Made by a program: the position numbers and the translations under genes
The notes under the pieces: generated by a model
Told to the model about the DNA's origin: nothing
The model's input: only the letters and a program-made list of their open reading frames with translations
Database searches by the model: none
Virus record (IMG/VR): IMGVR_UViG_3300043788_000169
Location: 1 to 64,000 of that record
Direction: 5' to 3' (one strand)
DNA: 64,000 nt
Origin: a virus
Shown: in pieces, positions 4,115 through 24,380 of the stretch
Layout: every line of letters starts with the position of its first letter
Position numbering within the stretch: position 1 is the stretch's first letter

Positions 4115-4755
4115 TGCGGCCTCTTCTGAGCATCCTCATAGCGACGCTGGGCAGCCGCCAGCGCAAGTTCCTGGACCTGCTCGATGTGCTGCTGCCGCAG
4201 GCTGAGCACTCGGGCCGGCAGATCGAGATCGTCGGCCTCTACAACCACGGCGAGCACCGCCTGGCTGTCGTCCGGCAAAGGCTGCTGGAAAGTGCCAGGG
4301 GCACATACCTGTGCTTCGTGGATGACGACGACATGGTTAGTCCGGACTATGTCGAGGCCGTAGGAAACGCCCTGGTGGGCCATAAGCCTGACTCGGTTGG
4401 GTTCAAGGTGTTCCTGAGTCACCGTGCCCAGGTCTCCACTTGCAGCCGCGTCCGCTTTGGCCAGAAGGTCTACGGCCACACCTGGGACTGGGGCGTCATG
4501 ACCCCGGTCCGGACTGAGATCGCCCAGAAGTGCCGGTTCGACACCTACTTTGGGGGCCGTGTCGGTGAGGACGGCTGGCTCAAGGCCCAGCTGCTGCCCC
4601 TGCTCGGCCCCGAGGAGTTCATAGATAAAGTGCTCTATGAGTACCGGTGGGACGCTGAGGACTCGACGCAGACCCACCTCGCCCGGCAGCCCCGCCTCCC
4701 GCGGCCCTACGTCGGGTCACTGGCGTTCCGGTGGCATGAATGGAGCAGCAGATGA
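4114..4755 (+). CDS. GT-A fold glycosyltransferase (GT2-like)
   Basis: The 213-residue protein begins with LLSILIATLGSRQ and has a metal-binding acidic run FVDDDDMVSPDYVE, the hallmark of family 2-like nucleotide-sugar glycosyltransferases. The ED in GEDGWLK could supply the catalytic base. The GTG start overlaps the previous stop codon. It stands alone among DNA-metabolism genes, apart from the main sugar cassette at 10.2-15.6 kb, and its acceptor (DNA base, virion protein or host glycan) is unknown. Confidence 0.75.
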   Translation: MRPLLSILIATLGSRQRKFLDLLDVLLPQAEHSGRQIEIVGLYNHGEHRLAVVRQRLLESARGTYLCFVDDDDMVSPDYVEAVGNALVGHKPDSVGFKVFLSHRAQVSTCSRVRFGQKVYGHTWDWGVMTPVRTEIAQKCRFDTYFGGRVGEDGWLKAQLLPLLGPEEFIDKVLYEYRWDAEDSTQTHLARQPRLPRPYVGSLAFRWHEWSSR

Positions 4756-4943
4756 AGAATCGCAGCAAGATTGTCTACTGCACCATGGACAGCTCTCAGT
4801 GGCTGATCCTGACCCCGCCAGCAGGCTTGGTGTCCCCTCCGGTGATAGCCCTGCACCAGCCATTTGCCGGGCCTGTGGAGTTCTACCACGCCTCGGCCTA
4901 CAACATCCCGGTGCCCGACGACGCGAAGGCGGCTGCGGAATGA
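4752..4943 (+). CDS. Small hypothetical protein
   Basis: This 63-residue protein is unrecognised. ATG 4752 forms an ATGA overlap with the glycosyltransferase stop; an in-frame ATG at 4740 is less likely. It overlaps the radical SAM gene by 4 bases, so the three genes are probably translationally coupled. No domain or membrane segment is visible. Confidence 0.5.
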   Translation: MKNRSKIVYCTMDSSQWLILTPPAGLVSPPVIALHQPFAGPVEFYHASAYNIPVPDDAKAAAE

Positions 4944-7891
4944 CCAGTCCTGCGTCCATCCAGAGCTGGCTCGACCAGACCTCCTACAAGATGGACCTGA
5001 GCTGCCAGTACCTCGGGGATGAGCCGAACACCCTGAACCGGGACTGGGACTCCTCCACCTTGAGGTGGCTCATGTGCGCGAGCTGGCCCTACGAGCACGC
5101 GGCCGGCAACCAGTCGATCCCCTACGTCGCCAAGGCGGTCACTGATGCCTCTCCCAGATACCTTTGTGACCGGTTCTACCTGCCTGCAACTCCGCGTGAC
5201 ATGCGTCTGCTGGAGCGTGGAGGTATTCCCTGTTTCGGGATCGAGTCAAAGCACGAGGTACTTGACTTTGATGTGGTCGGAACAAGTATCTCCTACCTTG
5301 TCCTTTTGATGAACTTCGCCAAGATGTTGACCATGAGCGGGATTCCGCTGCGGTGGCGCGAGCGGGAGGACGACCCCGGCGCCTACCCCATGGTCATCAT
5401 CGGCGGCCAGGCGTTCAGCGCCCCTGCCGCGATGGAGCCGATCGCGGACTGCATCTGGCTGGGGGAGGCCGACACCGAGCCCGGCAACGGCGGGATGGCC
5501 GCGGTGTGCCGGAGGATCGAGGAGTTCAAGGCCGCCGGTTCGTGGCGGCAGGACCGGATCGGCTGCTACCGCGAGCTGGCGCTGGAGTTCGGGTACCTGC
5601 ACTTCCCCCGGTTCGTGCAGACGCACTACCGGTACGAGGACCGCGGCCTGCCGCAGCCCTCGAAGGTGGTTGCGGGCTATGAGTCCCTGCTGCCGGGTAT
5701 GACCTTCCCGCGGCGCTCACGCCGGGTCCGCGACATGAACGCCATCTCCCCGCTGACTGCCGCGCCTCTGCTGTACTCCGACCCCGCGCTCGGCGCCGGG
5801 GACATGGAGGTCGCCCGCGGCTGCCCGGCTTGGTGTAGTTTTTGCCGTTTGTCTTGGTTGACCAAGCCGTACCGCCAGCGGGACGTCGCCTTGTCCGTCG
5901 AGCACGCTGCTCAGTGGCACCGCGCCATGGGTGCGGTCGAGCTGAGCCCGTTCGCCCCGGACTTCCCGATGCACACGCAGCGCCAGCTGCTGATCAAGCA
6001 GCTGCTGGAGCAGGTCAACGACGAGGCCGACGCGGTGGCCATGCGCATTGACGACGCCATCGCGGACAAGGGCGTCTACATCCAGCTCCAGGCTCTCGGC
6101 GGGATGGACGCGATCACCCTCGGCCTGGAGGGCAACTCCCAGCGCATGCGCGACCTCGTCGGCAAGGGCACCTCTGACAACGAGGTGGTCGAGGCGGTGC
6201 GGCAGGGGATCCAGGCTGGTTTGCGCAAGTTCAAGCTCTTCATGATCACCAACCTGCCGGGCGAGGAGAAGGGCGATGTCCTGCGGATCGTCCGGCTGGG
6301 CGAGCAGCTGGCCGCGGTCCGCGATGAGCTGGGGCAGCCGAACGTCCAGATCCAGTTCAGCTGGACCCCGCTGCTCATCGAGATGGGCACGCCGTTCCAG
6401 TGGTTCGCCGTGACCCACGCCGATCACACGCTGATCAAGATCGCTGAGTTTTTCCGCGACCTGAAAATCGCCTTCAAGATCGGTACCAAGGCTGAGCCCA
6501 ACAAGGTGGCGTTCTTCCAGCTGTGCCAGCGCGCCTCCGCCGAGGTCGGTGAGGCGATCGTGGATGTCATGGAGGAGATGAACATCGCCTGCTGGGGCGG
6601 TGTGCCCCGCGGCGACCCCGGCAAGCGCAACGGGATGAAGGACCGGCTGGAGGATGCCCTGATCACCCACGGCTTCCTCAACGGCTTCGATGACTGCTTT
6701 GACGAGCGGCGCCTGCCCGACCTGTTCGGCGCCGAGTACATCGACACCGGGGTGCCGCGCCAGCTGCTGTGGAGCACCTACCGCCAGATGGTGGAGTTCC
6801 TGGAGCAGACGGACGCCGACACCTACGACGACCTGCTCGACCCGGCCTACCGCGGCAATGAGTGGGTTGGCCGGTGCGATACTTCCTGCCAGGGGAAATC
6901 TTGCGGAGTGTGCTCACGCAGTGACCTGGAGTTGCGGCGCGACTACATCACCGCCGCGAAGAGCGAGCTGTCCACCGGCCTGTCCGGAGTCCGGCCGCTC
7001 GACCAGTCCTCAGTGGTCATGCGTGTCCGGCTCCGGCTGGTCCGGCGTGAGAAGTACCGCTTCGTCGGCAACGACCACTGGCGGTTCGCGGTCCGGCGCG
7101 CGGCCTATCAGGCTGCTTACGCCATGGCCAACACGCTGCCGGGTGGTTTCTCGATTGCCAAGCGCACCATCCACTTCGCCAGCGATAGGTTCGGCAGCCA
7201 GGGTCTGGCCGGCACCGACTACGTCGAGTTCGGGATCACCCGCGAGCTGGACGACGGCCAGCTGTACGCGTTCGTGGCCGGGATGTCGGCCTACCTGGAC
7301 CGGTGGGTGTCGGTGATCGAGGAGAGCCGGACCCAGCTGCCCCCGGTGGCTGGGGAGCTGCGCAAGGACGCGGATGTCAGCTTCTGCTCTATGACCCTGG
7401 CAGCGAGCCCTGACGTGGCCGCTGCGCGCCTCGCAGCCTGGGGCCGGGCAGAGACTGTGCCCATGATCCTGCGCCATCCTGGGGTCTACTTCGGGCTCGC
7501 CACCGAGGAGGTCGACGCCCGTGAGTTCGTGGACGACATGTGGGTGGCAGCCACCGGCAACAAGCTCGAACTCAAGATGTTCATCCGCGGGGAGCCGGGG
7601 CCTTACCAGCTGATGTCCACGCTCATGGGCAAAAAGAGCTGGATCGAGGCCATGGCTCACCCGGTGTGGCGGCACGACTTCTTCCTGCCCGGCTCGACAG
7701 GGCTGGCTGCGCTCCAGGGCGATAGCCTGCGCCTGGCCTGCATGGAGTGCGGGCTGCCGGTACCGTACGGCGCCGACGGCCAGCCCTGGCTGCGTGCAGC
7801 CCTCAGCGACCCCCTCGACATCTGCCCGCGGTGTCTCGATGAGCGCCACGGCCGGGTGCTCGCTGGCCTGCCCCGCCTCGCGGCCGTATAA
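4940..7891 (+). CDS. B12-binding-type radical SAM protein with DUF2344-like domain
   Basis: This 983-residue protein has several modules. The N-terminal ~260 residues resemble the B12-binding-like part of the TIGR03960 family (CQYLGDE, GIPCFGIESKHEVLDFDVVG, VIIGGQAF). A radical SAM CxxxCxxC follows as CPAWCSFC (Cys295, 299, 302) after ARG. Another cysteine cluster (CDTSCQGKSCGVC) lies near residue 645. A DUF2344-like segment (VRLRLVRREKYRFVGNDHW) and a C-terminal CxxC...CxxC pair follow. The CXXXCXXC ligands bind the 4Fe-4S cluster that cleaves SAM. Host members are uncharacterised and often sit near ribosomal or RNase E genes, so RNA modification is a fair guess next to a tRNA array. ATG 4940 is chosen by ATGA overlap. 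Confidence 0.75.
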   Translation: MTSPASIQSWLDQTSYKMDLSCQYLGDEPNTLNRDWDSSTLRWLMCASWPYEHAAGNQSIPYVAKAVTDASPRYLCDRFYLPATPRDMRLLERGGIPCFGIESKHEVLDFDVVGTSISYLVLLMNFAKMLTMSGIPLRWREREDDPGAYPMVIIGGQAFSAPAAMEPIADCIWLGEADTEPGNGGMAAVCRRIEEFKAAGSWRQDRIGCYRELALEFGYLHFPRFVQTHYRYEDRGLPQPSKVVAGYESLLPGMTFPRRSRRVRDMNAISPLTAAPLLYSDPALGAGDMEVARGCPAWCSFCRLSWLTKPYRQRDVALSVEHAAQWHRAMGAVELSPFAPDFPMHTQRQLLIKQLLEQVNDEADAVAMRIDDAIADKGVYIQLQALGGMDAITLGLEGNSQRMRDLVGKGTSDNEVVEAVRQGIQAGLRKFKLFMITNLPGEEKGDVLRIVRLGEQLAAVRDELGQPNVQIQFSWTPLLIEMGTPFQWFAVTHADHTLIKIAEFFRDLKIAFKIGTKAEPNKVAFFQLCQRASAEVGEAIVDVMEEMNIACWGGVPRGDPGKRNGMKDRLEDALITHGFLNGFDDCFDERRLPDLFGAEYIDTGVPRQLLWSTYRQMVEFLEQTDADTYDDLLDPAYRGNEWVGRCDTSCQGKSCGVCSRSDLELRRDYITAAKSELSTGLSGVRPLDQSSVVMRVRLRLVRREKYRFVGNDHWRFAVRRAAYQAAYAMANTLPGGFSIAKRTIHFASDRFGSQGLAGTDYVEFGITRELDDGQLYAFVAGMSAYLDRWVSVIEESRTQLPPVAGELRKDADVSFCSMTLAASPDVAAARLAAWGRAETVPMILRHPGVYFGLATEEVDAREFVDDMWVAATGNKLELKMFIRGEPGPYQLMSTLMGKKSWIEAMAHPVWRHDFFLPGSTGLAALQGDSLRLACMECGLPVPYGADGQPWLRAALSDPLDICPRCLDERHGRVLAGLPRLAAV

Positions 7892-15628: not shown

Positions 15629-15721
15629 GCCCCCGTAGCCCAACTGGCGAGGCGCACCAGTTAAACGGTTTGCGACGCGAATGCGACGCGTTTGCGGGTT
15701 CGAGTCCCGCCGGGGGCACCA
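15629..15721 (+). tRNA. Class II tRNA-like gene with duplicated variable arm, isotype uncertain
   Basis: A 7-bp acceptor (GCCCCCG/CGGGGGC), a canonical T-arm (GCGGG-TTCGAGT-CCCGC) and an encoded CCA are clear. The anticodon arm pairs poorly; TAA (Leu) is the reading if U33 is kept. The variable region contains a near-tandem repeat, TGCGACGCG twice. Confidence 0.5.
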
Positions 15722-15754
15722 GATGAAGTTCTGCAAGATGGCCCGGAAAAATAG

Positions 15755-15783
15755 TTGACACGGGTCTACCGGCATCGTATGGT
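15755..15783 (+). promoter_or_regulatory. Promoter with operator-like palindrome (copy 1)
   Basis: TTGACA at 15755-15760 and TATGGT at 15778-15783 are separated by 17 bases. The -35 lies in TTGACACGGGTCTACC, which differs by one base from two other copies at 32564 and 47161. It probably drives the tRNA array. Confidence 0.7.
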
Positions 15784-15789
15784 AGGTAC

Positions 15790-15888
15790 ATGATGAAGTA
15801 CAGGTACTCAGAGCAGCGAGTGCAGGATGGCAATCATGCCATCCCGTGCCCCGCCATGCTGGGGACCAGCGAGGTGGCTTCTGGGTAG
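15790..15888 (+). CDS. Possible leaderless 32-residue peptide
   Basis: An ATG-ATG pair begins 6 bases after the TATGGT box, where transcription would start, so this short ORF (MMKYRYSEQR...) could be translated from a leaderless transcript at the head of the tRNA operon. It contains the hairpin at 15825-15844. There is no homology evidence, and it may simply be non-coding leader RNA. Confidence 0.3.
   Translation: MMKYRYSEQRVQDGNHAIPCPAMLGTSEVASG
15825..15844 (+). other. Perfect 8-bp hairpin in tRNA operon leader
   Basis: GGATGGCA-ATCA-TGCCATCC forms a perfect stem with a 4-base loop about 35 bases after the predicted transcription start. It is not followed by a T-run, so processing or stability is more likely than termination. 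Confidence 0.5.
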
Positions 15889-15962
15889 ACCGCAAGGAAC
15901 TCCGGAAAGCCGCTCGCAGGGACAGAAGCCCTCGCGGGCGGTTTGCGTTTCAACTGAACATA

Positions 15963-16033
15963 GGGACGTAGTTCAGCGGCCAGAACGGCAGCCTCCAAAA
16001 CTGCGCGTCGGGGGTTCGACTCCTCCCGTCCCT
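15963..16033 (+). tRNA. tRNA-Trp(CCA)
   Basis: Acceptor GGGACG/CGTCCC, anticodon loop CTCCAAA (U33) and T-loop TTCGACT. CCA is not encoded. Confidence 0.85.
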
Positions 16034-16213
16034 GCGGAGCACCACCCTGAAGGCTGGGGTGAACGTGCCAGCAGATTGATAACTCAACAGCGTGAGCATC
16101 GCCCAGGGCGCCATCCCTGGGCACAAGACTCCCCGAGCCGGGTGCACGGCAGCTCGTGGCAACGCCGCGGTTGCCGTGCCGGGCGGAAACGTCGGCCCGG
16201 CCGGGGAGCACAT

Positions 16214-16285
16214 GGGGATGAGAAGCTGAGGTAGCGACCGCGCCCTGCAAGCGTTGGTGACTCGGTTCGATTCCGAGCATCTCCA
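16214..16285 (+). tRNA. tRNA-Ala(TGC), C33
   Basis: Acceptor GGGGATG/CATCTCC carries the G3-U70 alanine identity pair. Counting back from the T-arm (CTCGG-TTCGATT-CCGAG) with a 5-base variable loop places loop CCTGCAA, hence C33 and TGC. The outer anticodon-stem pair is mismatched. Confidence 0.75.
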
Positions 16286-16370
16286 CGGCGTTTTTGGCAG
16301 CTGCCCACGTCCTGGCGCATCAGGTAACCCCTGCTCTGTCCCCAGATCAGGCTAAAAACAACTGCCACCA

Positions 16371-16444
16371 CGGGATATGGCTCAGTTTGGCAGAGCGCGC
16401 GGTCCGGGGCCGCGAGGGCGCTGGTTCAAATCCAGCTATCCCGA
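16371..16444 (+). tRNA. tRNA-Pro(CGG), C33
   Basis: Acceptor CGGGATA/TATCCCG with A73, anticodon stem CGCGG/CCGCG and loop TCCGGGG. C33 replaces U33. Confidence 0.82.
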
Positions 16445-16585
16445 CATGGTCCGGTGAGTAGGGATGACAACCGAGGGGCCGGGCAGCAACGTGGGATCAA
16501 CATGTGAGTCGACCTTTGCCCACCCGCAAGCGGGAACCTGCGGAGTTAGTCACCGCAGCAGCCTGGGAAGCGGTCGGTCGGACAA

Positions 16586-16657
16586 CGGGATGTCGCGTAA
16601 GGGTTAGCGCGCCTGCTTTGGGAGCAGGCAGTCAAGGTTCGAGTCCTTGTATCCCGA
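16586..16657 (+). tRNA. tRNA-Pro(TGG)
   Basis: Acceptor CGGGATG/TATCCCG, anticodon arm CCTGC-TTTGGGA-GCAGG and T-loop TTCGAGT. U33 is normal. Confidence 0.88.
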
Positions 16658-16659
16658 CC

Positions 16660-16693
16660 GGGGGAGATGCGGGTTCGAGTCCCGTCCTGTCCG
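16660..16693 (+). tRNA. 3' half of a reversed-order (permuted?) tRNA
   Basis: Contains a 3' anticodon strand GGGGG (16660-16664), a T-arm (GCGGG-TTCGAGT-CCCGT) and a 3' acceptor strand CCTGTCC (16686-16692) with G73. The matching 5' acceptor GGACAGG lies downstream at 16757, not upstream. Confidence 0.6.
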
Positions 16694-16756
16694 TGAAAAC
16701 TCTCCGCGGCGGCCGATCTGCAGGCGGCTGGCCGGCCAGGGCCCTGGTCAGGAGAG

Positions 16757-16794
16757 GGACAGGTAGTCCAACTGGCAGGACGCCTCCTCTAGTT
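16757..16794 (+). tRNA. 5' half of a reversed-order (permuted?) tRNA
   Basis: Contains 5' acceptor GGACAGG, TA, a D-arm with GTCC/GGAC and AACTGGCA loop, and 5' anticodon strand CCTCC. It pairs fully with the 3' half at 16660-16693. The flanking CTCTCC (16700-16705) and GGAGAG (16751-16756) extend the acceptor stem. The anticodon cannot be fixed. Confidence 0.6.
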
Positions 16795-16915
16795 CTGGTG
16801 CGGCTTACCACGGCTCGGCTGGGGTTCGGGAGAAGAACGTCCGGGAGGTCGAGCACAATACGCGGGCTCAGTCCCGCGCAAACGGCGGCCGGAAGCTGTG
16901 GGAGCACCAGCACAT

Positions 16916-16988
16916 GGGTCTGTAGCTCAGATGGGAGAGCAGCCGTCCGAAAAGCGGCAGGTCGAGGATTCGATCGCCTCCGGGCCCA
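16916..16988 (+). tRNA. tRNA-Phe(GAA), C33
   Basis: Acceptor GGGTCTG/CGGGCCC, anticodon arm GCCGT-CCGAAAA-GCGGC, T-loop TTCGATC. C33 replaces U33; one T-stem mismatch. Confidence 0.8.
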
Positions 16989-17057
16989 CGATGGCATGAC
17001 GGTCAGGCCGTAGTCAGCCGGTAGGCCGACGAGCACGAGTCGACATGCTCTGTAAAG

Positions 17058-17079
17058 CTCCGCTGTGGCCACAGCGGAG
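17058..17079. repeat. Perfect 22-bp palindrome
   Basis: CTCCGCTGTGG followed directly by CCACAGCGGAG is a perfect palindrome without a spacer, in a tRNA-poor gap. GGCCG near 17000 and CGGCC near 17094 could close a larger tRNA-like fold around it, but there is no T-loop. It may be a protein-binding site or a cruciform. Confidence 0.5.
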
Positions 17080-17157
17080 TCTCATGTCAGCCCGGCCACT
17101 GTGCTGGGCGCGCTAGTTGCGGGTACCTCCTGCGTCAGTGGAGCGAACCTCCAATCT

Positions 17158-17229
17158 GGGGACGTGACCGAACGGCACAGGTGCCAGGCTTCCACCCTGG
17201 TCACGCGGGTTCGACTCCCGCCGTCCTCT
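17158..17229 (+). tRNA. tRNA-Gly(TCC)
   Basis: Acceptor GGGGACG/CGTCCTC, anticodon arm CCAGG-CTTCCAC-CCTGG, T-loop TTCGACT. U33 normal. Confidence 0.86.
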
Positions 17230-17285
17230 CGGTGACGAGCAGGGTGCCATTCCCTGTGATCGCGCAAGTGGCTGGCAGGCCGCGG

Positions 17286-17332
17286 CCGGGCAGGCTCTGG
17301 GAGACTGCCATCTTGCAGAGGTGCCCGGTTTT
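17286..17332 (+). terminator. Terminator-like hairpin inside tRNA array
   Basis: CCGGGCA (17286-17292) pairs with TGCCCGG (17322-17328), with an inner CTCTG/CAGAG stem, and TTTT follows directly. It could stop or attenuate transcription before tRNA-Lys(CTT), or be a processing signal. Confidence 0.5.
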
Positions 17333-17334
17333 AT

Positions 17335-17407
17335 GCGCTGCGAGCATGTCTGGCTATGCACCGGACTCTTAATCCGGGGAACACGGGTTCGATCCCCTGG
17401 CGGCGCA
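17335..17407 (+). tRNA. tRNA-Lys(CTT)
   Basis: Acceptor GCGCTGC/GCGGCGC, anticodon arm CCGGA-CTCTTAA-TCCGG, T-loop TTCGATC. U33 normal; one T-stem mismatch. Confidence 0.86.
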
Positions 17408-17408
17408 C

Positions 17409-17484
17409 GGGCGAGTACGTCCAACAGGCAGAGCGGCCGGCCTCAAAATCCGCGCGGTTGCGGGTTCGATTCCCGCCTCGCCTA
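17409..17484 (+). tRNA. tRNA, anticodon CAA (Leu?)
   Basis: Acceptor GGGCGAG/CTCGCCT and T-arm GCGGG-TTCGATT-CCCGC are clear; the loop is CTCAAAA. The anticodon stem has two mismatches and the variable loop is only 6 bases, unlike bacterial Leu tRNAs, so the charging identity is uncertain. Confidence 0.6.
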
Positions 17485-17490
17485 CACGAT

Positions 17491-17562
17491 GGAGCATGGT
17501 GGTAATTCGGTATCCCACTGGGCCCTGAACCCAGGGATCCAGGTTCGAGTCCTGGTGCTCCA
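17491..17562 (+). tRNA. tRNA-Gln(CTG), C33
   Basis: Acceptor GGAGCAT/GTGCTCC, anticodon arm CTGGG-CCCTGAA-CCCAG, T-loop TTCGAGT. C33 replaces U33. Confidence 0.84.
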
Positions 17563-17566
17563 GCTA

Positions 17567-17658
17567 GTCCCGGCCCGGCTTTCCCTGAATCGACAGGCGA
17601 CCCCGAAGCGCGACGGCGCATAAGGGGACGGGCGCGACGGTGCAGCCCGGCCGGGACT
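17567..17658 (+). ncRNA. Structured element closed by a 7-bp acceptor-like stem
   Basis: GTCCCGG (17567-17573) pairs with CCGGGAC (17651-17657) around ~77 bases with inner stems CCTG/CAGG, CCCC/GGGG and CGGGC/GCCCG. It sits at tRNA spacing between two tRNAs but lacks a TTCRA T-loop. A degenerate class II tRNA or another small RNA is possible. Confidence 0.35.
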
Positions 17659-17662
17659 TCAC

Positions 17663-17737
17663 GCCTCCGTAGCTCAATGGTGGAGCAGTGCCCCCGTAAG
17701 GCACAGGCCGCAGGGTCGGTACCTGCCGGAGGCTCCA
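17663..17737 (+). tRNA. tRNA-Thr(CGT), C33
   Basis: Acceptor GCCTCCG/CGGAGGC, anticodon arm GTGCC-CCCGTAA-GGCAC and encoded CCA. C33 replaces U33, and the T-loop is GTCGGTA, so positions 54 and 58 are non-canonical. Confidence 0.8.
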
Positions 17738-17738
17738 T

Positions 17739-17824
17739 GTGCTCGTGGCGGAACAGGTATACGCGCTAGCCCGAGATGCTAGTGCTCCGCAAGGGGCGTG
17801 CGGGTTCGACTCCCGCCGAGCGCA
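17739..17824 (+). tRNA. tRNA-Leu(GAG), C33
   Basis: Class II tRNA with acceptor GTGCTCG/CGAGCGC, anticodon arm CTAGC-CCGAGAT-GCTAG, a long variable arm and T-loop TTCGACT. C33 replaces U33. Confidence 0.84.
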
Positions 17825-17924
17825 CGGGGAGAGAGATCCGGACATAGCGTCGCCGGCAGCCTCTCAGGGCATCCTGGGAAGGCGGGTAGTTCAAGAGCTT
17901 AGAAGAATACTCTCCCAGCTTTCT

Positions 17925-17992
17925 GCCGTCAGGCCAGCGCCGGCCATGCTCTTGTAAAGCACTGGCCTCCGGATCGGCACCGGACGACGGCT
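17925..17992 (+). tRNA. tRNA-Thr(TGT), atypical D- and T-loops
   Basis: Acceptor GCCGTC/GACGGC, anticodon loop CTTGTAA (U33). The D-loop is short without the GG pair and the T-loop is ATCGGCA, so tertiary contacts are expected to be weak. Confidence 0.65.
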
Positions 17993-17998
17993 CTCAAT

Positions 17999-18067
17999 GG
18001 AGGATCAGATAATGGCAGTCGGCCGGGTTTTGGCCCCGGCAGTCGTGGTTCGAGTCCACGTCCTCCA
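17999..18067 (+). tRNA. tRNA-Gln(TTG)
   Basis: Acceptor GGAGGAT/GTCCTCC, anticodon arm CCGGG-TTTTGGC-CCCGG, T-loop TTCGAGT. U33 normal. Confidence 0.86.
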
Positions 18068-18072
18068 GCTAT

Positions 18073-18144
18073 GCCTGCCTAGTGGTAACGGCAGCACGCG
18101 TCCTTGGTAAGGACGTAGACGGAGTTCAATTCTCCGGGCAGGCT
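18073..18144 (+). tRNA. tRNA-Thr(GGT)
   Basis: Acceptor GCCTGCC/GGCAGGC, anticodon arm CGTCC-TTGGTAA-GGACG, T-loop TTCAATT. U33 normal. Confidence 0.88.
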
Positions 18145-18180
18145 CTCGATCCCCGCACTCTTGGGTGGTGCGGGGCTCAT

Positions 18181-18253
18181 GCGGATGTAGCTCAGTGGTC
18201 AGAGCGTCACCTTGCCAAGGTGAGGGCCGCGGGTTCGATCCCCGCTATCCGCT
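18181..18253 (+). tRNA. tRNA-Gly(GCC)
   Basis: Acceptor GCGGATG/TATCCGC, anticodon arm TCACC-TTGCCAA-GGTGA, T-loop TTCGATC. U33 normal. Confidence 0.88.
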
Positions 18254-18347
18254 CGGCTCTGGGGAGTGCGAGGACAAGAGCGAGGCGGCGGCCTCATCTC
18301 TTAGGGAGCACACGAAGCGCGGCCGGAGGGGACCGCCTTCATCTGAT

Positions 18348-18431
18348 GTCCCGGTGGCGTAATAGGCAGCCGCGCACGGCTCAGACCCGTGTGTCCGGAA
18401 GGACGTGAGGGTTCGACCCCCTCCTGGGACA
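18348..18431 (+). tRNA. tRNA-Leu(CAG)
   Basis: Class II tRNA with acceptor GTCCCGG/CTGGGAC, anticodon arm CACGG-CTCAGAC-CCGTG, a variable stem and T-loop TTCGACC. U33 normal. Confidence 0.88.
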
Positions 18432-18433
18432 CG

Positions 18434-18470
18434 ATAAAAGGCACCGCCCCGCTGCTACGAGACGGTGCCT
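18434..18470 (-). terminator. Intrinsic terminator on minus strand
   Basis: AGGCACCG (18439-18446) pairs with CGGTGCCT (18463-18470); read on the minus strand the stem is followed by CTTTTAT. It lies downstream of the only minus-strand gene (18545-18700), passing through antisense of tRNA-Cys. Confidence 0.65.
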
Positions 18471-18473
18471 GCT

Positions 18474-18544
18474 GGTCCCCTGGCCGAGTGGCTAGGCGCT
18501 GGCCTGCAAAGCCAGATAGATCGGTTCGAGTCCGATGGGGGCCT
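18474..18544 (+). tRNA. tRNA-Cys(GCA)
   Basis: Acceptor GGTCCCC/GGGGGCC with U73 as expected for Cys, anticodon arm CTGGC-CTGCAAA-GCCAG, T-loop TTCGAGT. Confidence 0.9.
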
Positions 18545-18700
18545 CTACCCGTGGAACATGGTGTTGGGGTTGGCCTGCGTGGTCGTCTGCTGGGCTCCGT
18601 TGCCTGGCGGGACCGCATTCGCTGAGGCTCCGGCCGCGCTCAGGAGAGCGCCGAGCGCAATGCCTGCGGCGAGGAGGGCTGCTAGAAGTCGAGAGCGCAT
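18545..18700 (-). CDS. Small secreted or lipoprotein-like peptide, minus strand
   Basis: Read on the minus strand, ATG 18700-18698 opens a 51-residue ORF preceded by GAAAGGTGAAAGATC, a good SD. The N-terminus has two arginines, a hydrophobic core (LLAALLAAGIALGALL) and an ASA signal-peptidase site near residue 27, leaving a short N-AVPPGN... tail. This is the only minus-strand gene supported in the window and is embedded in the tRNA array, with its own terminator-like hairpin at 18434-18470. Its post-cleavage start (NAVP) resembles that of the secreted protein at 56828 (NTVP). A cell-envelope role, such as superinfection exclusion, is speculation. Confidence 0.6.
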   Translation of the reverse strand: MRSRLLAALLAAGIALGALLSAAGASANAVPPGNGAQQTTTQANPNTMFHG

Positions 18701-18764
18701 GATCTTTCACCTTTCTGCCAGTAGTTGCCAGGGTACGCCTAGGCGATTGTTCTGCAACAGGCAT

Positions 18765-18849
18765 GGAGCGGTGGCCGAGCGGCCTATGGCGGTGTCCTGC
18801 TAAGGCACTCACCGGAAACGGTGCGCGGGTTCAAATCCCGCTCGCTCCT
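18765..18849 (+). tRNA. tRNA-Ser(GCT)
   Basis: Class II tRNA with acceptor GGAGCGG/TCGCTCC, anticodon arm GTGTC-CTGCTAA-GGCAC, a variable stem and T-loop TTCAAAT. U33 normal. Confidence 0.88.
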
Positions 18850-18852
18850 CTT

Positions 18853-18943
18853 GGAGGGATAAGCCGAGTTGGTCTACCGGCTGCCGTCCCGAAAACGGTT
18901 AGGGGTGATGAGCCCCGTGTGGGTTCGAGTCCCACTCCCTCCT
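18853..18943 (+). tRNA. tRNA-Ser(CGA), C33
   Basis: Class II tRNA with acceptor GGAGGGA/TCCCTCC, anticodon loop CCCGAAA on a GCCGT/ACGGT stem, a long variable arm and T-loop TTCGAGT. C33 replaces U33. Confidence 0.84.
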
Positions 18944-18947
18944 CCAA

Positions 18948-19020
18948 CCGCCTCGACTCAGCCGGTGACGAGGCTCGTCTGATAAGCGAGTACCGCGTGG
19001 TTCAACTCCACGGGGGCGGA
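18948..19020 (+). tRNA. tRNA-Ile(GAT)
   Basis: Acceptor CCGCCTC/GGGGCGG, anticodon arm CTCGT-CTGATAA-GCGAG, T-loop TTCAACT. A C1-G72 pair is unusual for Ile. Confidence 0.84.
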
Positions 19021-19022
19021 CT

Positions 19023-19094
19023 GGCCGGTAGCTAAAAGGTGACGGCGCCTGTCCTATAAACAGGAGATGTGCGGGTTCGACCCCCGCCCGGCCT
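19023..19094 (+). tRNA. tRNA-Ile(TAT), C33
   Basis: Acceptor GGCCGG/CCGGCC, anticodon arm CCTGT-CCTATAA-ACAGG, T-loop TTCGACC. C33 replaces U33; it would read the rare AUA codon. Confidence 0.84.
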
Positions 19095-19099
19095 ACTAG

Positions 19100-19172
19100 G
19101 CTCCCCGCGCCCGACTGGACGGGCACCGGACTTTTAATCCGGACTGACTGGGTTCGATTCCTTGGGGGAGCA
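19100..19172 (+). tRNA. tRNA-Lys(TTT)
   Basis: Acceptor GCTCCCC/GGGGAGC, anticodon arm CCGGA-CTTTTAA-TCCGG, T-loop TTCGATT. U33 normal; same anticodon stem as tRNA-Lys(CTT). Confidence 0.88.
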
Positions 19173-19244
19173 CTGGGTGGCTGGCGGGCGCCAGCGCTGG
19201 CGGAGTGACGTCCCCGCCTCCCATGAACGCGAGGCCGCCTTAAA

Positions 19245-19316
19245 GCGTCGCTGGTGTAAAGGAAGCGCGCTCGCCTTCTAAGCGAGATGGTCCCGGTTCG
19301 AGTCCGGGGTGACGCA
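19245..19316 (+). tRNA. tRNA-Arg(TCT)
   Basis: Acceptor GCGTCGC/GTGACGC, anticodon arm CTCGC-CTTCTAA-GCGAG, T-loop TTCGAGT. U33 normal. Confidence 0.88.
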
Positions 19317-19326
19317 CGGTTTACAT

Positions 19327-19397
19327 GGCCCTATCGTCTAACGGCAGGATCGCTGGTTCTCAGCCAGTAGGCCGGGGTTCAACTCCCCGTAGGGCTA
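19327..19397 (+). tRNA. tRNA-Glu(CTC)
   Basis: Acceptor GGCCCTA/TAGGGCT (G1-U72), anticodon arm GCTGG-TTCTCAG-CCAGT, T-loop TTCAACT. U33 normal. Confidence 0.82.
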
Positions 19398-19401
19398 CTT
19401 T

Positions 19402-19479
19402 GCCGCTGTTACTCTGATGGCAAGGGGTAGCCGGGTTTTCACCCCGGACACGACGCGGGTTCGATTCCCGTCAGCGGCT
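19402..19479 (+). tRNA. tRNA-Glu(TTC)
   Basis: Acceptor GCCGCTG/CAGCGGC, anticodon arm CCGGG-TTTTCAC-CCCGG, T-loop TTCGATT. U33 normal. Confidence 0.86.
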
Positions 19480-19480
19480 C

Positions 19481-19554
19481 TGCGGACAGCAGCACCGGCC
19501 GTGCTGAACGGTCTCATAAGCCGAGATAGCTGGGTTCGACTCCCAGGTCCGCAA
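19481..19554 (+). tRNA. tRNA-Met(CAT) (or CAT-Ile)
   Basis: Acceptor TGCGGAC/GTCCGCA, anticodon loop CTCATAA, T-loop TTCGACT. The paired T1-A72 argues against initiator tRNA; lysidine-type Ile cannot be excluded. Confidence 0.78.
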
Positions 19555-19558
19555 CTGA

Positions 19559-19629
19559 TCCGGTGTCATTCAATGGCAGGATGCGTGACTGTTAATCACG
19601 TCATATTGGTTCGACCCCAATCACCGGAG
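19559..19629 (+). tRNA. tRNA-Asn(GTT)
   Basis: Acceptor TCCGGTG/CACCGGA with G73, anticodon arm CGTGA-CTGTTAA-TCACG, T-loop TTCGACC. Confidence 0.88.
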
Positions 19630-19672
19630 CCCGCGGAACGTCCTTGGCCCCGCGTTAAAAACTAAGGGCAGC

Positions 19673-19747
19673 ATGGTGGCGTAGCACAACTGGCTAGTGC
19701 ACCACCCCGTCAAGGTGGATTGTGCGGGTTCAAGTCCCGTCGTCATC
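19673..19747 (+). tRNA. tRNA-Asp(GTC), C33
   Basis: Acceptor ATGGTGG pairs with TCGTCAT using several G-U pairs; anticodon arm CCACC-CCGTCAA-GGTGG is perfect; T-loop TTCAAGT. C33 replaces U33. Confidence 0.8.
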
Positions 19748-19755
19748 GCGAGAGC

Positions 19756-19780
19756 GGAGGTTCAAATCCTCCCTCCCAGC
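19756..19780 (+). tRNA. Orphan tRNA 3' half
   Basis: A T-arm (GGAGG-TTCAAAT-CCTCC) and 3' acceptor strand CTCCCAG with C73 stand without a 5' half in front. No nearby 5' strand CTGGGAG with a D-arm was found, so it is probably a remnant, or half of a split gene. Confidence 0.5.
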
Positions 19781-19785
19781 TTCAT

Positions 19786-19859
19786 GGGTGCTTAGCTCAG
19801 CGGTAGAGCGGCAGCACGACAAGCTGTGTCACGCGGAGGTTCGATCCCTCCAGCGCCCA
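19786..19859 (+). tRNA. tRNA-Val(GAC), C33
   Basis: Acceptor GGGTGCT/AGCGCCC, anticodon arm GCAGC-ACGACAA-GCTGT, T-loop TTCGATC. C33 replaces U33. Confidence 0.84.
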
Positions 19860-19860
19860 C

Positions 19861-19938
19861 GGGAAGGTCCGGCTGGCAGATGGCTAGGCTGCCGAGTGTG
19901 CGCGCACTACCCGTTCGATTCGGGAACGGGCTCTCCCG
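19861..19938 (+). tRNA. Degenerate tRNA-like sequence
   Basis: A D-arm-like GGCAG/CTGCC hairpin and a TTCGATT loop in a CCCG/CGGG stem are present. The anticodon arm (AGTG-TGCGCG-CACT) has the wrong geometry and acceptor pairing is poor. It is likely a decaying tRNA gene. Confidence 0.35.
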
Positions 19939-19944
19939 GTACAC

Positions 19945-20016
19945 GCGTCCATCGTTCAACGGATAGGGCACCAGGCTACGGACCTGGGAATGGGGGTTCG
20001 AGTCCCTCTGGGCGCA
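19945..20016 (+). tRNA. tRNA-Arg(ACG)
   Basis: Acceptor GCGTCCA/TGGGCGC, anticodon arm CCAGG-CTACGGA-CCTGG, T-loop TTCGAGT. U33 normal. Confidence 0.88.
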
Positions 20017-20061
20017 CGGCGCGGACACCGGCATCCTGCGGGATGTCAGGACCGCGCGCAC

Positions 20062-20133
20062 GGGCTGTTAGCTCAGCGGCAGAGCTGCGCCTCCACACGG
20101 CGTGCAGCGGAGGTTCGAGTCCTCCACGGCCCA
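20062..20133 (+). tRNA. tRNA-Val(CAC), C33
   Basis: Acceptor GGGCTGT/ACGGCCC, anticodon arm GCGCC-TCCACAC-GGCGT, T-loop TTCGAGT. C33 replaces U33. Confidence 0.84.
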
Positions 20134-20134
20134 C

Positions 20135-20210
20135 GGTGAATGAATCCAAAGAGGAGGCGGGGCCTGGCCGTGAACCAGGTATTTAGCGGGTTCGACGCCC
20201 GTCATTCACC
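20135..20210 (+). tRNA. tRNA-His(GTG), C33
   Basis: Acceptor GTGAATG/CATTCAC with G-1 and C73, the His identity pair; anticodon arm CCTGG-CCGTGAA-CCAGG. C33 replaces U33. Confidence 0.84.
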
Positions 20211-20213
20211 CCA

Positions 20214-20294
20214 GCCAGCTTGGCCGAGTGGGCGAAGGCACCTGCCTGTAAAGCAGGCTCGAAAGACGCGGTGGTTCAAATCCATCAGCTGGCA
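20214..20294 (+). tRNA. tRNA-Tyr(GTA)
   Basis: Acceptor GCCAGCT/AGCTGGC, anticodon arm CCTGC-CTGTAAA-GCAGG, class II variable arm, T-loop TTCAAAT. Confidence 0.9.
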
Positions 20295-20299
20295 CGCAA

Positions 20300-20368
20300 G
20301 TCCCCGGCAGCGGATCTGCCGCGGAGGTTCCGAACCTTGGCTGCCCAGTCCGACTCTGGGCGGGGACA
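20300..20368 (+). tRNA. tRNA-Arg(CCG), T55C
   Basis: Acceptor GTCCCCG/CGGGGAC, anticodon loop TTCCGAA (U33), T-arm CCCAG-TCCGACT-CTGGG. Position 55, normally pseudouridine, is C. Confidence 0.78.
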
Positions 20369-20370
20369 CT

Positions 20371-20440
20371 GGCCTGAAGCTCAATGGACGAGCTGCTGCC
20401 CCCTAAGCAGATGGTTGCGGGTTCGAGTCCCGTCAGGCCG
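20371..20440 (+). tRNA. tRNA-Arg(CCT), C33
   Basis: Acceptor GGCCTGA/TCAGGCC, anticodon stem CTGC/GCAG with loop CCCCTAA, T-loop TTCGAGT. C33 replaces U33. Confidence 0.82.
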
Positions 20441-20552
20441 GCCACATCGATGCTCACGCTGCGAGTTATCCTGGTATCCGGTTCGGCGTTTCTTGGTCGC
20501 CGTCCTATCCGGCCCGGCCCCGTCCAAGCGCTCCCGCGGAGATAGCTGTTGT

Positions 20553-22755: not shown

Positions 22756-23763
22756 GTGTACCTGGAGCGCGTGCTGGCGGCAACGGCTGAAACGCCGACA
22801 GCCTCAACCGTTCCAAAACCACTACATCCCGGTGGCCCTGGTCTCTGGCGTCATAAGCACTGGATGGCCCCGCCCTACGTGGAGCACGTAGCGCAAGCGC
22901 TTATGCGTCGGGGAAAGTCGGAGTCCGAGGCTTACCACATGGCTGTTGGTTTGATGCACTCATGGAGTGCAGGTCACGACGGCCACGGCCACCACGTGCA
23001 CGCCGACGTCAAGGCAGCGGCGGCCGCGAACCTCGCCAAGTGGGAGGAGCTGCGTGGCCGGGCCCACGCCAGCCATCTCGCAAAGAAGGCAAAGGGCCAC
23101 TCGCGGGACAAGCGCCACCACGACCTCGCGGCCAGCGCTGCGTGGGACGAGATCGGTGAGCTGATGGTGGAGTTCGCCCGGACCGCCCCGCTCGACATCG
23201 TGGAGCTGGCCTCGGGCCCGACCTATTTCTACGACGCTTCGATGCTCAAGGGAGGATCGGAGGCCAGCGCGCCGGGCGCCAAGCGGATCACCAGCAACCA
23301 GCTGCGCCAGAACCCGAGCCAGACAGTTGCCGCCAACCCCCCGCTGCCGCCCGGCGTCACGCTGCCTACCCCGGCCGAGCTGAACCAGCTCGCCGCGAAC
23401 ATCTCCTCGGCCGGCCTGCCCGAGAGCGACCTCATCCGCGGCGCCCGCGACCACGCCCGGGCAGCAGCCATGAAGATGCAGGCTAACCAGCCGGTCGACG
23501 CGCTGCACATGCTGCGCGCGTGCCAGGCGGGGATCGTCTCAGCCCACCGGGAGTACAACGGCAGCCTCATCCCGGTGGCCAACGTGTTCAGCGCGCGGCT
23601 GGCGCCTGCTGAAGCCGCCTCGGCGCGAGCCGAGATGTTCGAGGGACTGAAGACCCGCGACACCTTCCGCCAGCTGGCTACGCAGTGTGCGCAGTTCATT
23701 GACCGGATCCGCCGTCACATCTTCCATGGTTTGTATAACCACATGGCCGAGGCAAGGTTCTAG
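22756..23763 (+). CDS. Actinophage structural-region protein with His-rich domain
   Basis: The 335-residue protein carries a recognisable actinophage-type segment: PYVEHVAQALMRRGKSESEA...MHSWSAG followed by DVKAAAAANLAKWEEL. Similar segments are found in head-region proteins and prohead-protease tails of other phages. A histidine cluster (GHDGHGHHVH) lies within it. GTG 22756 is 9 bases after CGAT. Its stop overlaps the next GTG by one base. A virion or assembly role is inferred. Confidence 0.6.
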   Translation: MYLERVLAATAETPTASTVPKPLHPGGPGLWRHKHWMAPPYVEHVAQALMRRGKSESEAYHMAVGLMHSWSAGHDGHGHHVHADVKAAAAANLAKWEELRGRAHASHLAKKAKGHSRDKRHHDLAASAAWDEIGELMVEFARTAPLDIVELASGPTYFYDASMLKGGSEASAPGAKRITSNQLRQNPSQTVAANPPLPPGVTLPTPAELNQLAANISSAGLPESDLIRGARDHARAAAMKMQANQPVDALHMLRACQAGIVSAHREYNGSLIPVANVFSARLAPAEAASARAEMFEGLKTRDTFRQLATQCAQFIDRIRRHIFHGLYNHMAEARF

Positions 23764-24380
23764 TGGACAAGGTCACCCGCCTGCTCGCGCTGGCGGCACA
23801 GGACATCAGCCCGTCGAGCACGATGATCTACCTGCAGGCCCCGCCAGCGCTGTTTCCTGGTGAGGTGATCGACAAGCCCGGCCACCTCACCGTGGTGTAT
23901 CTGGGCAAGGTCGGGCAGGCCGAGTTCACCACTGCCTGCGAGCGGGCGAAGTCCGCGGCCGGCGCGGTGCCGCCGATCCATGCCACGATTGGCGGCCTCG
24001 GCTCGTTCGAGCCGACGGAGAACTCCGACGGCAAGAAGGTCTACTACTGCCCGGTCTACGGCGACGGCATCCACTGGCTGCGAGCGCTGCTGGCCGACCT
24101 CGCCGCGCCGAACGCGCTGCCGTTCGTCCCGCACATCACCCTGGCCTACGCGGACGAGGGTGAGGACCCGCCGTCCCCGGTCACCAGTGGCCGGCTGTGC
24201 TTCACTCAGCTGTACGTTTCCCGCGGGGCGCAGATCTGCGCCTATCCGCTGAAAGGCGGCCACGAGCCGCACGGTTCCGGTCAGCACATGCGGGACCGGC
24301 GGCCGGGCGAGGCTCCGCTGAGCCGGATCGACGCTGTGATGGAGCTGGCTGACAAGGTGGCGCCGGGATGGCGCCCCTAG
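23763..24380 (+). CDS. 2H phosphoesterase (LigT/Acb1-like fold)
   Basis: The 205-residue protein has the two HxT motifs of the 2H superfamily: HLT at 41-43 (GHLTVVYLG) and HIT at 124-126 (VPHITLAYAD), about 80 residues apart as expected. 2H enzymes open 2',3'- or other cyclic phosphates in RNA ends and nucleotides; phage Acb1 proteins of this fold destroy CBASS signalling molecules. Given the tRNA array, tRNA end repair is the other reading. GTG 23763 shares a base with the previous stop. Confidence 0.78.
   Translation: MDKVTRLLALAAQDISPSSTMIYLQAPPALFPGEVIDKPGHLTVVYLGKVGQAEFTTACERAKSAAGAVPPIHATIGGLGSFEPTENSDGKKVYYCPVYGDGIHWLRALLADLAAPNALPFVPHITLAYADEGEDPPSPVTSGRLCFTQLYVSRGAQICAYPLKGGHEPHGSGQHMRDRRPGEAPLSRIDAVMELADKVAPGWRP

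Follow-up and report, generated by a model that had tools for sequence, protein, structure and literature searches.

Organization of the tRNA array

The stretch of DNA analyzed here, which we call the window, spans the first 64 kb of the 132.5-kb linear IMG/VR record IMGVR_UViG_3300043788_000169, a record that we read as stretches. It carries a large array of transfer RNA (tRNA) genes, many of which have C rather than U at position 33 (C33 and U33). Gene products in the record include a portal protein, terminase, capsid protease, major capsid protein, clamp, clamp loader, and family A DNA polymerase (PolA), and the closest isolate that we found is the Microbacterium phage Magritte (OR553905), with 50% identity in the major capsid protein and 34% in PolA. 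The virus is probably an actinobacteriophage, and its host is likely an actinobacterium. When a portal profile was searched against bacterial genomes for a prophage or host, it found no relative. The record also encodes a DUF2637-domain protein (L011:7578-8846; record positions 109578-110846), a family that occurs in actinomycetes and that would favor an actinobacterial host.

U33, the base just 5' of the anticodon, is near-universal in tRNAs; it is treated as invariant and is assumed by tRNA-finding tools and models. ARAGORN, which is biased toward canonical T loops, called 31 tRNAs between positions 15629 and 20444, and its bracket structures show C33 within a 7-nucleotide (nt) loop in 11 of them, as listed here.

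15629-20444, plus strand: whole tRNA array; 31 ARAGORN tRNAs plus Lys(ctt), Ala, and His
16214-16286, plus strand: tRNA-Ala(tgc)-like; loop CCTGCAA, C33; weak structure, RF00005 18.9 bits
16371-16445, plus strand: tRNA-Pro(cgg); loop TCCGGGG, C33; ARAGORN and Rfam
16916-16989, plus strand: tRNA-Phe(gaa); loop CCGAAAA, C33; ARAGORN and Rfam
17335-17407, plus strand: tRNA-Lys(ctt); outside ARAGORN's 31
17490-17564, plus strand: tRNA-Gln(ctg); loop CCCTGAA, C33; ARAGORN and Rfam
17663-17737, plus strand: tRNA-Thr(cgt); loop CCCGTAA, C33; CCA encoded; ARAGORN and Rfam
17739-17825, plus strand: tRNA-Leu(gag); loop CCGAGAT, C33; ARAGORN and Rfam
18853-18946, plus strand: tRNA-Ser(cga); loop CCCGAAA, C33; ARAGORN and RF01852
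19022-19096, plus strand: tRNA-Ile(tat); loop CCTATAA, C33; ARAGORN and Rfam
19675-19749, plus strand: tRNA-Asp(gtc); loop CCGTCAA, C33; ARAGORN and Rfam
19786-19860, plus strand: tRNA-Val(gac); loop ACGACAA, C33; ARAGORN and Rfam
20062-20134, plus strand: tRNA-Val(cac); loop TCCACAC, C33; ARAGORN and Rfam
20135-20210, plus strand: tRNA-His(gtg)-like; loop CCGTGAA, C33; weak D arm; read from the sequence
20370-20444, plus strand: tRNA-Arg(cct); loop CCCCTAA, C33; ARAGORN and Rfam

A preliminary description of this DNA had reported 13 C33 genes in an array of 35 tRNAs at 16214-20440. All 13 were recovered, 11 of them by ARAGORN and Rfam together and the structurally weaker Ala and His genes by eye. 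The array starts at 15629, upstream of that range, and its total comes to about 34. In agreement with that description, C33 is not an alignment artifact: covariance alignments give C, not U, at this site, with the Rfam RF00005 alignment placing C at the second loop position in 10 of the 11 genes and RF01852 doing so for Ser(cga). These 11 genes form a cloverleaf with a 7-bp acceptor stem, a 5-bp anticodon stem, and a 7-nt loop (with a mismatch in some stems) and depart from canonical elongator tRNAs in lacking U33. The substitution is systematic, with the U33-bearing neighbors serving as a control. The viral records are assemblies. Sequencing error is an unlikely cause because the same C33 loops reappear in independently assembled relatives.

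The His gene, which neither program called, has a perfect 7-bp acceptor stem and the G-1:C73 pair typical of His, with partial homologues in three other loci (L283, L015, and L044). Over 77 nt, almost exactly the length of the gene, the Ala gene is identical in a close relative (L098). This Ala-like gene (16214-16288) also matches both ends of the transfer-messenger RNA (tmRNA) model (19.4 bits), the middle being almost absent, and could be either the remnant of a tmRNA or a tRNA of unusual form. Two other members of the array are atypical. The first tRNA (15629-15721), perhaps a degenerate Leu(UAA), combines a long variable arm with an 8-nt loop in which TTAAAC occurs, and the C33-bearing tRNA-Ile (19022-19096) has the anticodon UAU, not the usual bacterial CAU (lysidine) form.

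Position 33 in related phages, other viruses, and cellular genomes

A search with the portal protein yielded 79 viral loci. Among 492 distinct tRNAs from metagenomic relatives, a count that includes related sequences, position 33 was T in 366, C in 125, G in 1, and A in none. Purines are thus nearly excluded, which suggests that a pyrimidine is required. In relatives with a guanine-plus-cytosine (GC) content of 66-70%, the arrays reach 37 tRNAs and C33 averages ~29% per record; a near-identical virus (G005; portal 99%) has C33 in 10 of 30. More distant relatives at 42-56% GC have it in 1 of 149. C33 is thus shared by the metagenomic relatives of this virus.

By every measure of integrity that we applied, C33 and U33 tRNAs resemble each other. 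Stem pairing averages 20.86 pairs in the former and 20.90 in the latter, conservation of the T loop is equal, other invariants are the same, and loop positions 32, 37, and 38 remain canonical in C33 tRNAs. Between the window and a near relative, identity is 87.4% for C33 tRNAs, 86.8% for U33 tRNAs, and 80.1% for the spacers. Because pairing and conservation between close relatives match those of U33 tRNAs, the C33 tRNAs look functional, as far as sequence comparison can tell.

The identity of the tRNAs that carry C33 reflects repeated switching. Among pairs of the same isoacceptor that are at least 80% identical, 23% differ at position 33, compared with 12%, 8%, and 10% at positions 32, 37, and 38, and position 33 changes at the frequency of a stem site; 12 of 76 clusters of near-identical tRNAs are mixed for U and C. 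The Phe loop, for example, is CCGAAAA in the window and CTGAAAA in the close relative L098. For Ser(cga), all seven distinct copies in the clade have C33.

C33 is rare in genomes of the presumed host type. A C33 pattern for Asn, Asp, His, and Tyr tRNAs matched 1 of 297 actinobacterial genomes, that one being the search center, a known match, while the U33 version gave 30 matches in 25 of 30 actinobacterial genomes. Val tRNAs in actinobacterial genomes had U33 in 19 of 20 matches. Across ~85,000 species, the C33 pattern produced 108 matches, and in 9 of 14 inspected cellular genomes with C33-Asn or C33-Asp, the same pattern detected a separate U33-Asn; in the remaining five, such a gene may have escaped the strict pattern. 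Several Saccharofermentans and Ruminococcaceae genomes from rumen and gut (L108, L132, L142, L147, L148, L161, and L174-L176) contain comparable additional tRNA clusters in which the Asn tRNA, and often those for Lys and Pro, carry C33, and five of the six that were checked have a separate U33 Asn tRNA. Contigs of metagenome-assembled genomes from Micromonosporaceae, Acidobacteria, Planctomycetales, Eremiobacterota, and Chloroflexi (L112, L149, L157, L165, and L183) carry arrays with 5-9 C33 tRNAs of 15-25, which probably belong to phages or mobile elements and were binned together with the host.

Unselected viral contigs were drawn with a pattern that is neutral at position 33. In their arrays, the share of C33 climbs with GC content, from 1.5% through 2.8% and 7.9% to 13.4%. 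Certain tRNAs never changed: over both the clade and the unrelated viruses, C33 was found in 0 of 68 Arg(acg), 0 of 50 Gly(gcc), 0 of 69 Lys(ctt), and 0 of 72 Trp genes. Val is high in C33, with Val(gac) at 10 of 19 in the clade and 14 of 21 elsewhere.

We found no earlier description of C33, or of editing at position 33, in bacteria or phages in a literature search that did not cover subscription papers. Tonenili (Bixzunavirus) also has C33 in two Val tRNAs, for a total of 2 of 24 compared with 11 of 30 here. Magritte likewise has a high-GC array, of 25 tRNAs, and differs in that all of them have U33.

Explanations for C33

Our leading, if tentative, reading is that C33 acts as a functional stand-in for U33 in supernumerary tRNAs and is kept by relaxed constraint together with GC bias. 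The tRNAs of the array would be supernumerary elongators of an ordinary kind, able to use U33 or C33 almost interchangeably, with C33 the sole substitution that preserves a working anticodon loop. The C, probably protonated at N3, would donate the same backbone hydrogen bond as U in the U-turn. The phage copy could bear a small cost of C33, since the host has U33 tRNAs of its own. GC-biased T-to-C substitution would make C33 repeatedly, to persist or revert tRNA by tRNA, and C33 would go unseen wherever U33 is demanded by a modifying enzyme or by a step in decoding, for example in A34 deamination of Arg(ACG).

Several observations bear on these steps. The deaminase TadA needs U33. In this enzyme, which acts on A34 of Arg(ACG), the RNA contacts span U33 to G37 (PMC7713142). 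The clade's other invariants also drift from AT to GC, with T55 changing to C in 16 of 18 changes and A58 to G in 14 of 19; tallies for U8 and A14 were set aside, as simple indexing drifts in odd cloverleaves. Vertebrate initiator tRNA offers a natural, working C33, although it is eukaryotic and an initiator rather than an elongator. The U14C+ neomycin riboswitch likewise has C for the eponymous U of the U-turn and keeps its function, and nuclear magnetic resonance (NMR) showed that this replacement is isosteric through protonation of C N3; unlike the present case, it concerns the loop of a riboswitch rather than a tRNA (PMC6061696).

A number of results weigh against a tolerated swap driven by GC bias. 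High GC is insufficient for C33, because Magritte, at 61-65% GC, has it in 0 of 25 tRNAs. In other viruses, the GC effect becomes weak once isoacceptor is controlled for (odds ratio 2.0, P = 0.064; record-level rho = 0.29, P = 0.011). Stratified by isoacceptor, C33 is more frequent in the clade than in unrelated high-GC phages (odds ratio 3.3, P = 1.4e-4), an excess for which this reading does not account; these tests ignore relatedness. Outside the clade, other invariant positions show no decay with GC, and the effect is therefore specific to site 33. The propensity of each isoacceptor for C33 is correlated between the clade and unrelated viruses (rho = 0.58, P = 0.002, 26 isoacceptors), which simple drift would not predict. 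Finally, C33 shows no correlation with codon usage (rho = -0.001), and tRNAs that read rare codons do not have it more often.

A possible alternative, nearly as plausible as the tolerated swap, is that C33 shields the tRNAs of the phage from anticodon nucleases of the host that cut at or read U33 (PrrC/RloC-like, VapC-like, or U-directed HEPN enzymes), with translation tolerating C. Such escape, which the preliminary description had proposed, is a published concept for tRNAs of cluster C1 mycobacteriophages, which likewise have a large actinophage array, in their case with anticodon loops altered compared with those of the host (van den Berg et al. 2023, PMC10264068). The text of that study, however, rests on known VapC targets and never mentions position 33. 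An arms race would fit the fast switching, the near absence of C33 from host-type genomes, and the excess over other high-GC phages. The confinement of the change to the anticodon loop and the isoacceptor bias common to unrelated phages point the same way, although the shared bias fits biochemical tolerance equally well. Nuclease escape leaves unexplained why the neighboring positions 32, 37, and 38 stay unaltered and why C33 climbs with GC in other viruses, and U33 is kept in 70-75% of the clade's tRNAs.

A gene near the array could be relevant to nuclease damage:

23763-24380, plus strand: 2H phosphoesterase (LigT/2'-5' RNA ligase superfamily); two HxT motifs; PF13563 2.3e-9

It lies 3.3 kb past the array and matches phrog_2659 (7e-7), a family of long phage RNA ligases of which the match covers the C-terminal portion. 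The predicted enzyme may heal or process cleaved RNA ends or may degrade cyclic nucleotides. Its presence would suit nuclease escape, while searches of the genome for RNA ligases with PF09414 and PF09511 found none. Taken together, the restriction of the change to C, the canonical positions 32, 37, and 38, the viral GC trend, and the occurrence of cellular C33 mostly beside a U33 copy fit the tolerated swap somewhat better than nuclease escape. A stronger version of the latter, which we consider doubtful, is that exchange of U33 for C is a general phage strategy: the clade would have converted at least a quarter of its tRNAs to a decoding C-turn loop invisible to U33-reading nucleases, and the converted set would track the host's nuclease repertoire.

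It is improbable that these are weakened, slow, or nontranslational tRNAs whose C33 reduces decoding for the sake of regulation or of some other pathway. A turn deprived of the U33 N3-H contact should be weaker, yet the lack of any link to codon usage, the mixture of amino acids, and the speed with which orthologues switch between U and C speak against such a role, and the suggestion of slow or regulatory tRNAs in the preliminary description found no evidence.

Still less probable is RNA editing, in which C33 would be deaminated to U33 after transcription and the DNA letter would be neutral. C8-to-U8 editing of tRNA in Methanopyrus provides an analogy, and editing predicts both variation confined to C and free switching, as seen. 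It does not predict the isoacceptors that never have C33, host-type genomes are without such C33 genes, and the literature yielded no bacterial C33 editing. No cytidine or deoxycytidine monophosphate deaminase was found in the 132-kb record with PF00383 (the control matched 13 of 14 genomes) or by a motif scan, although a host enzyme is possible. Decaying pseudogenes are comparably implausible: the weak arms of the Ala and His genes would suit decay, but purines are excluded at position 33, the Ala gene is identical in a relative, and pairing and conservation equal to those of U33 genes rule decay out for the 11 well-formed genes.

Whichever reading holds, this collection of several hundred phage tRNAs, whose close orthologues alternate between U33 and C33 and avoid purines, constitutes a natural test of the role of U33 in decoding, modification, and nuclease recognition. 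The nuclease-escape hypothesis gains a single cheap base change with which it can be tested, and supernumerary tRNAs appear to explore sequences not visited by essential host tRNAs.

Elsewhere in the window, positions 4637-7891 encode a radical SAM protein of 1084 amino acids with a Radical_SAM_N2 domain, whose matches in phage databases reach only ~25% identity.

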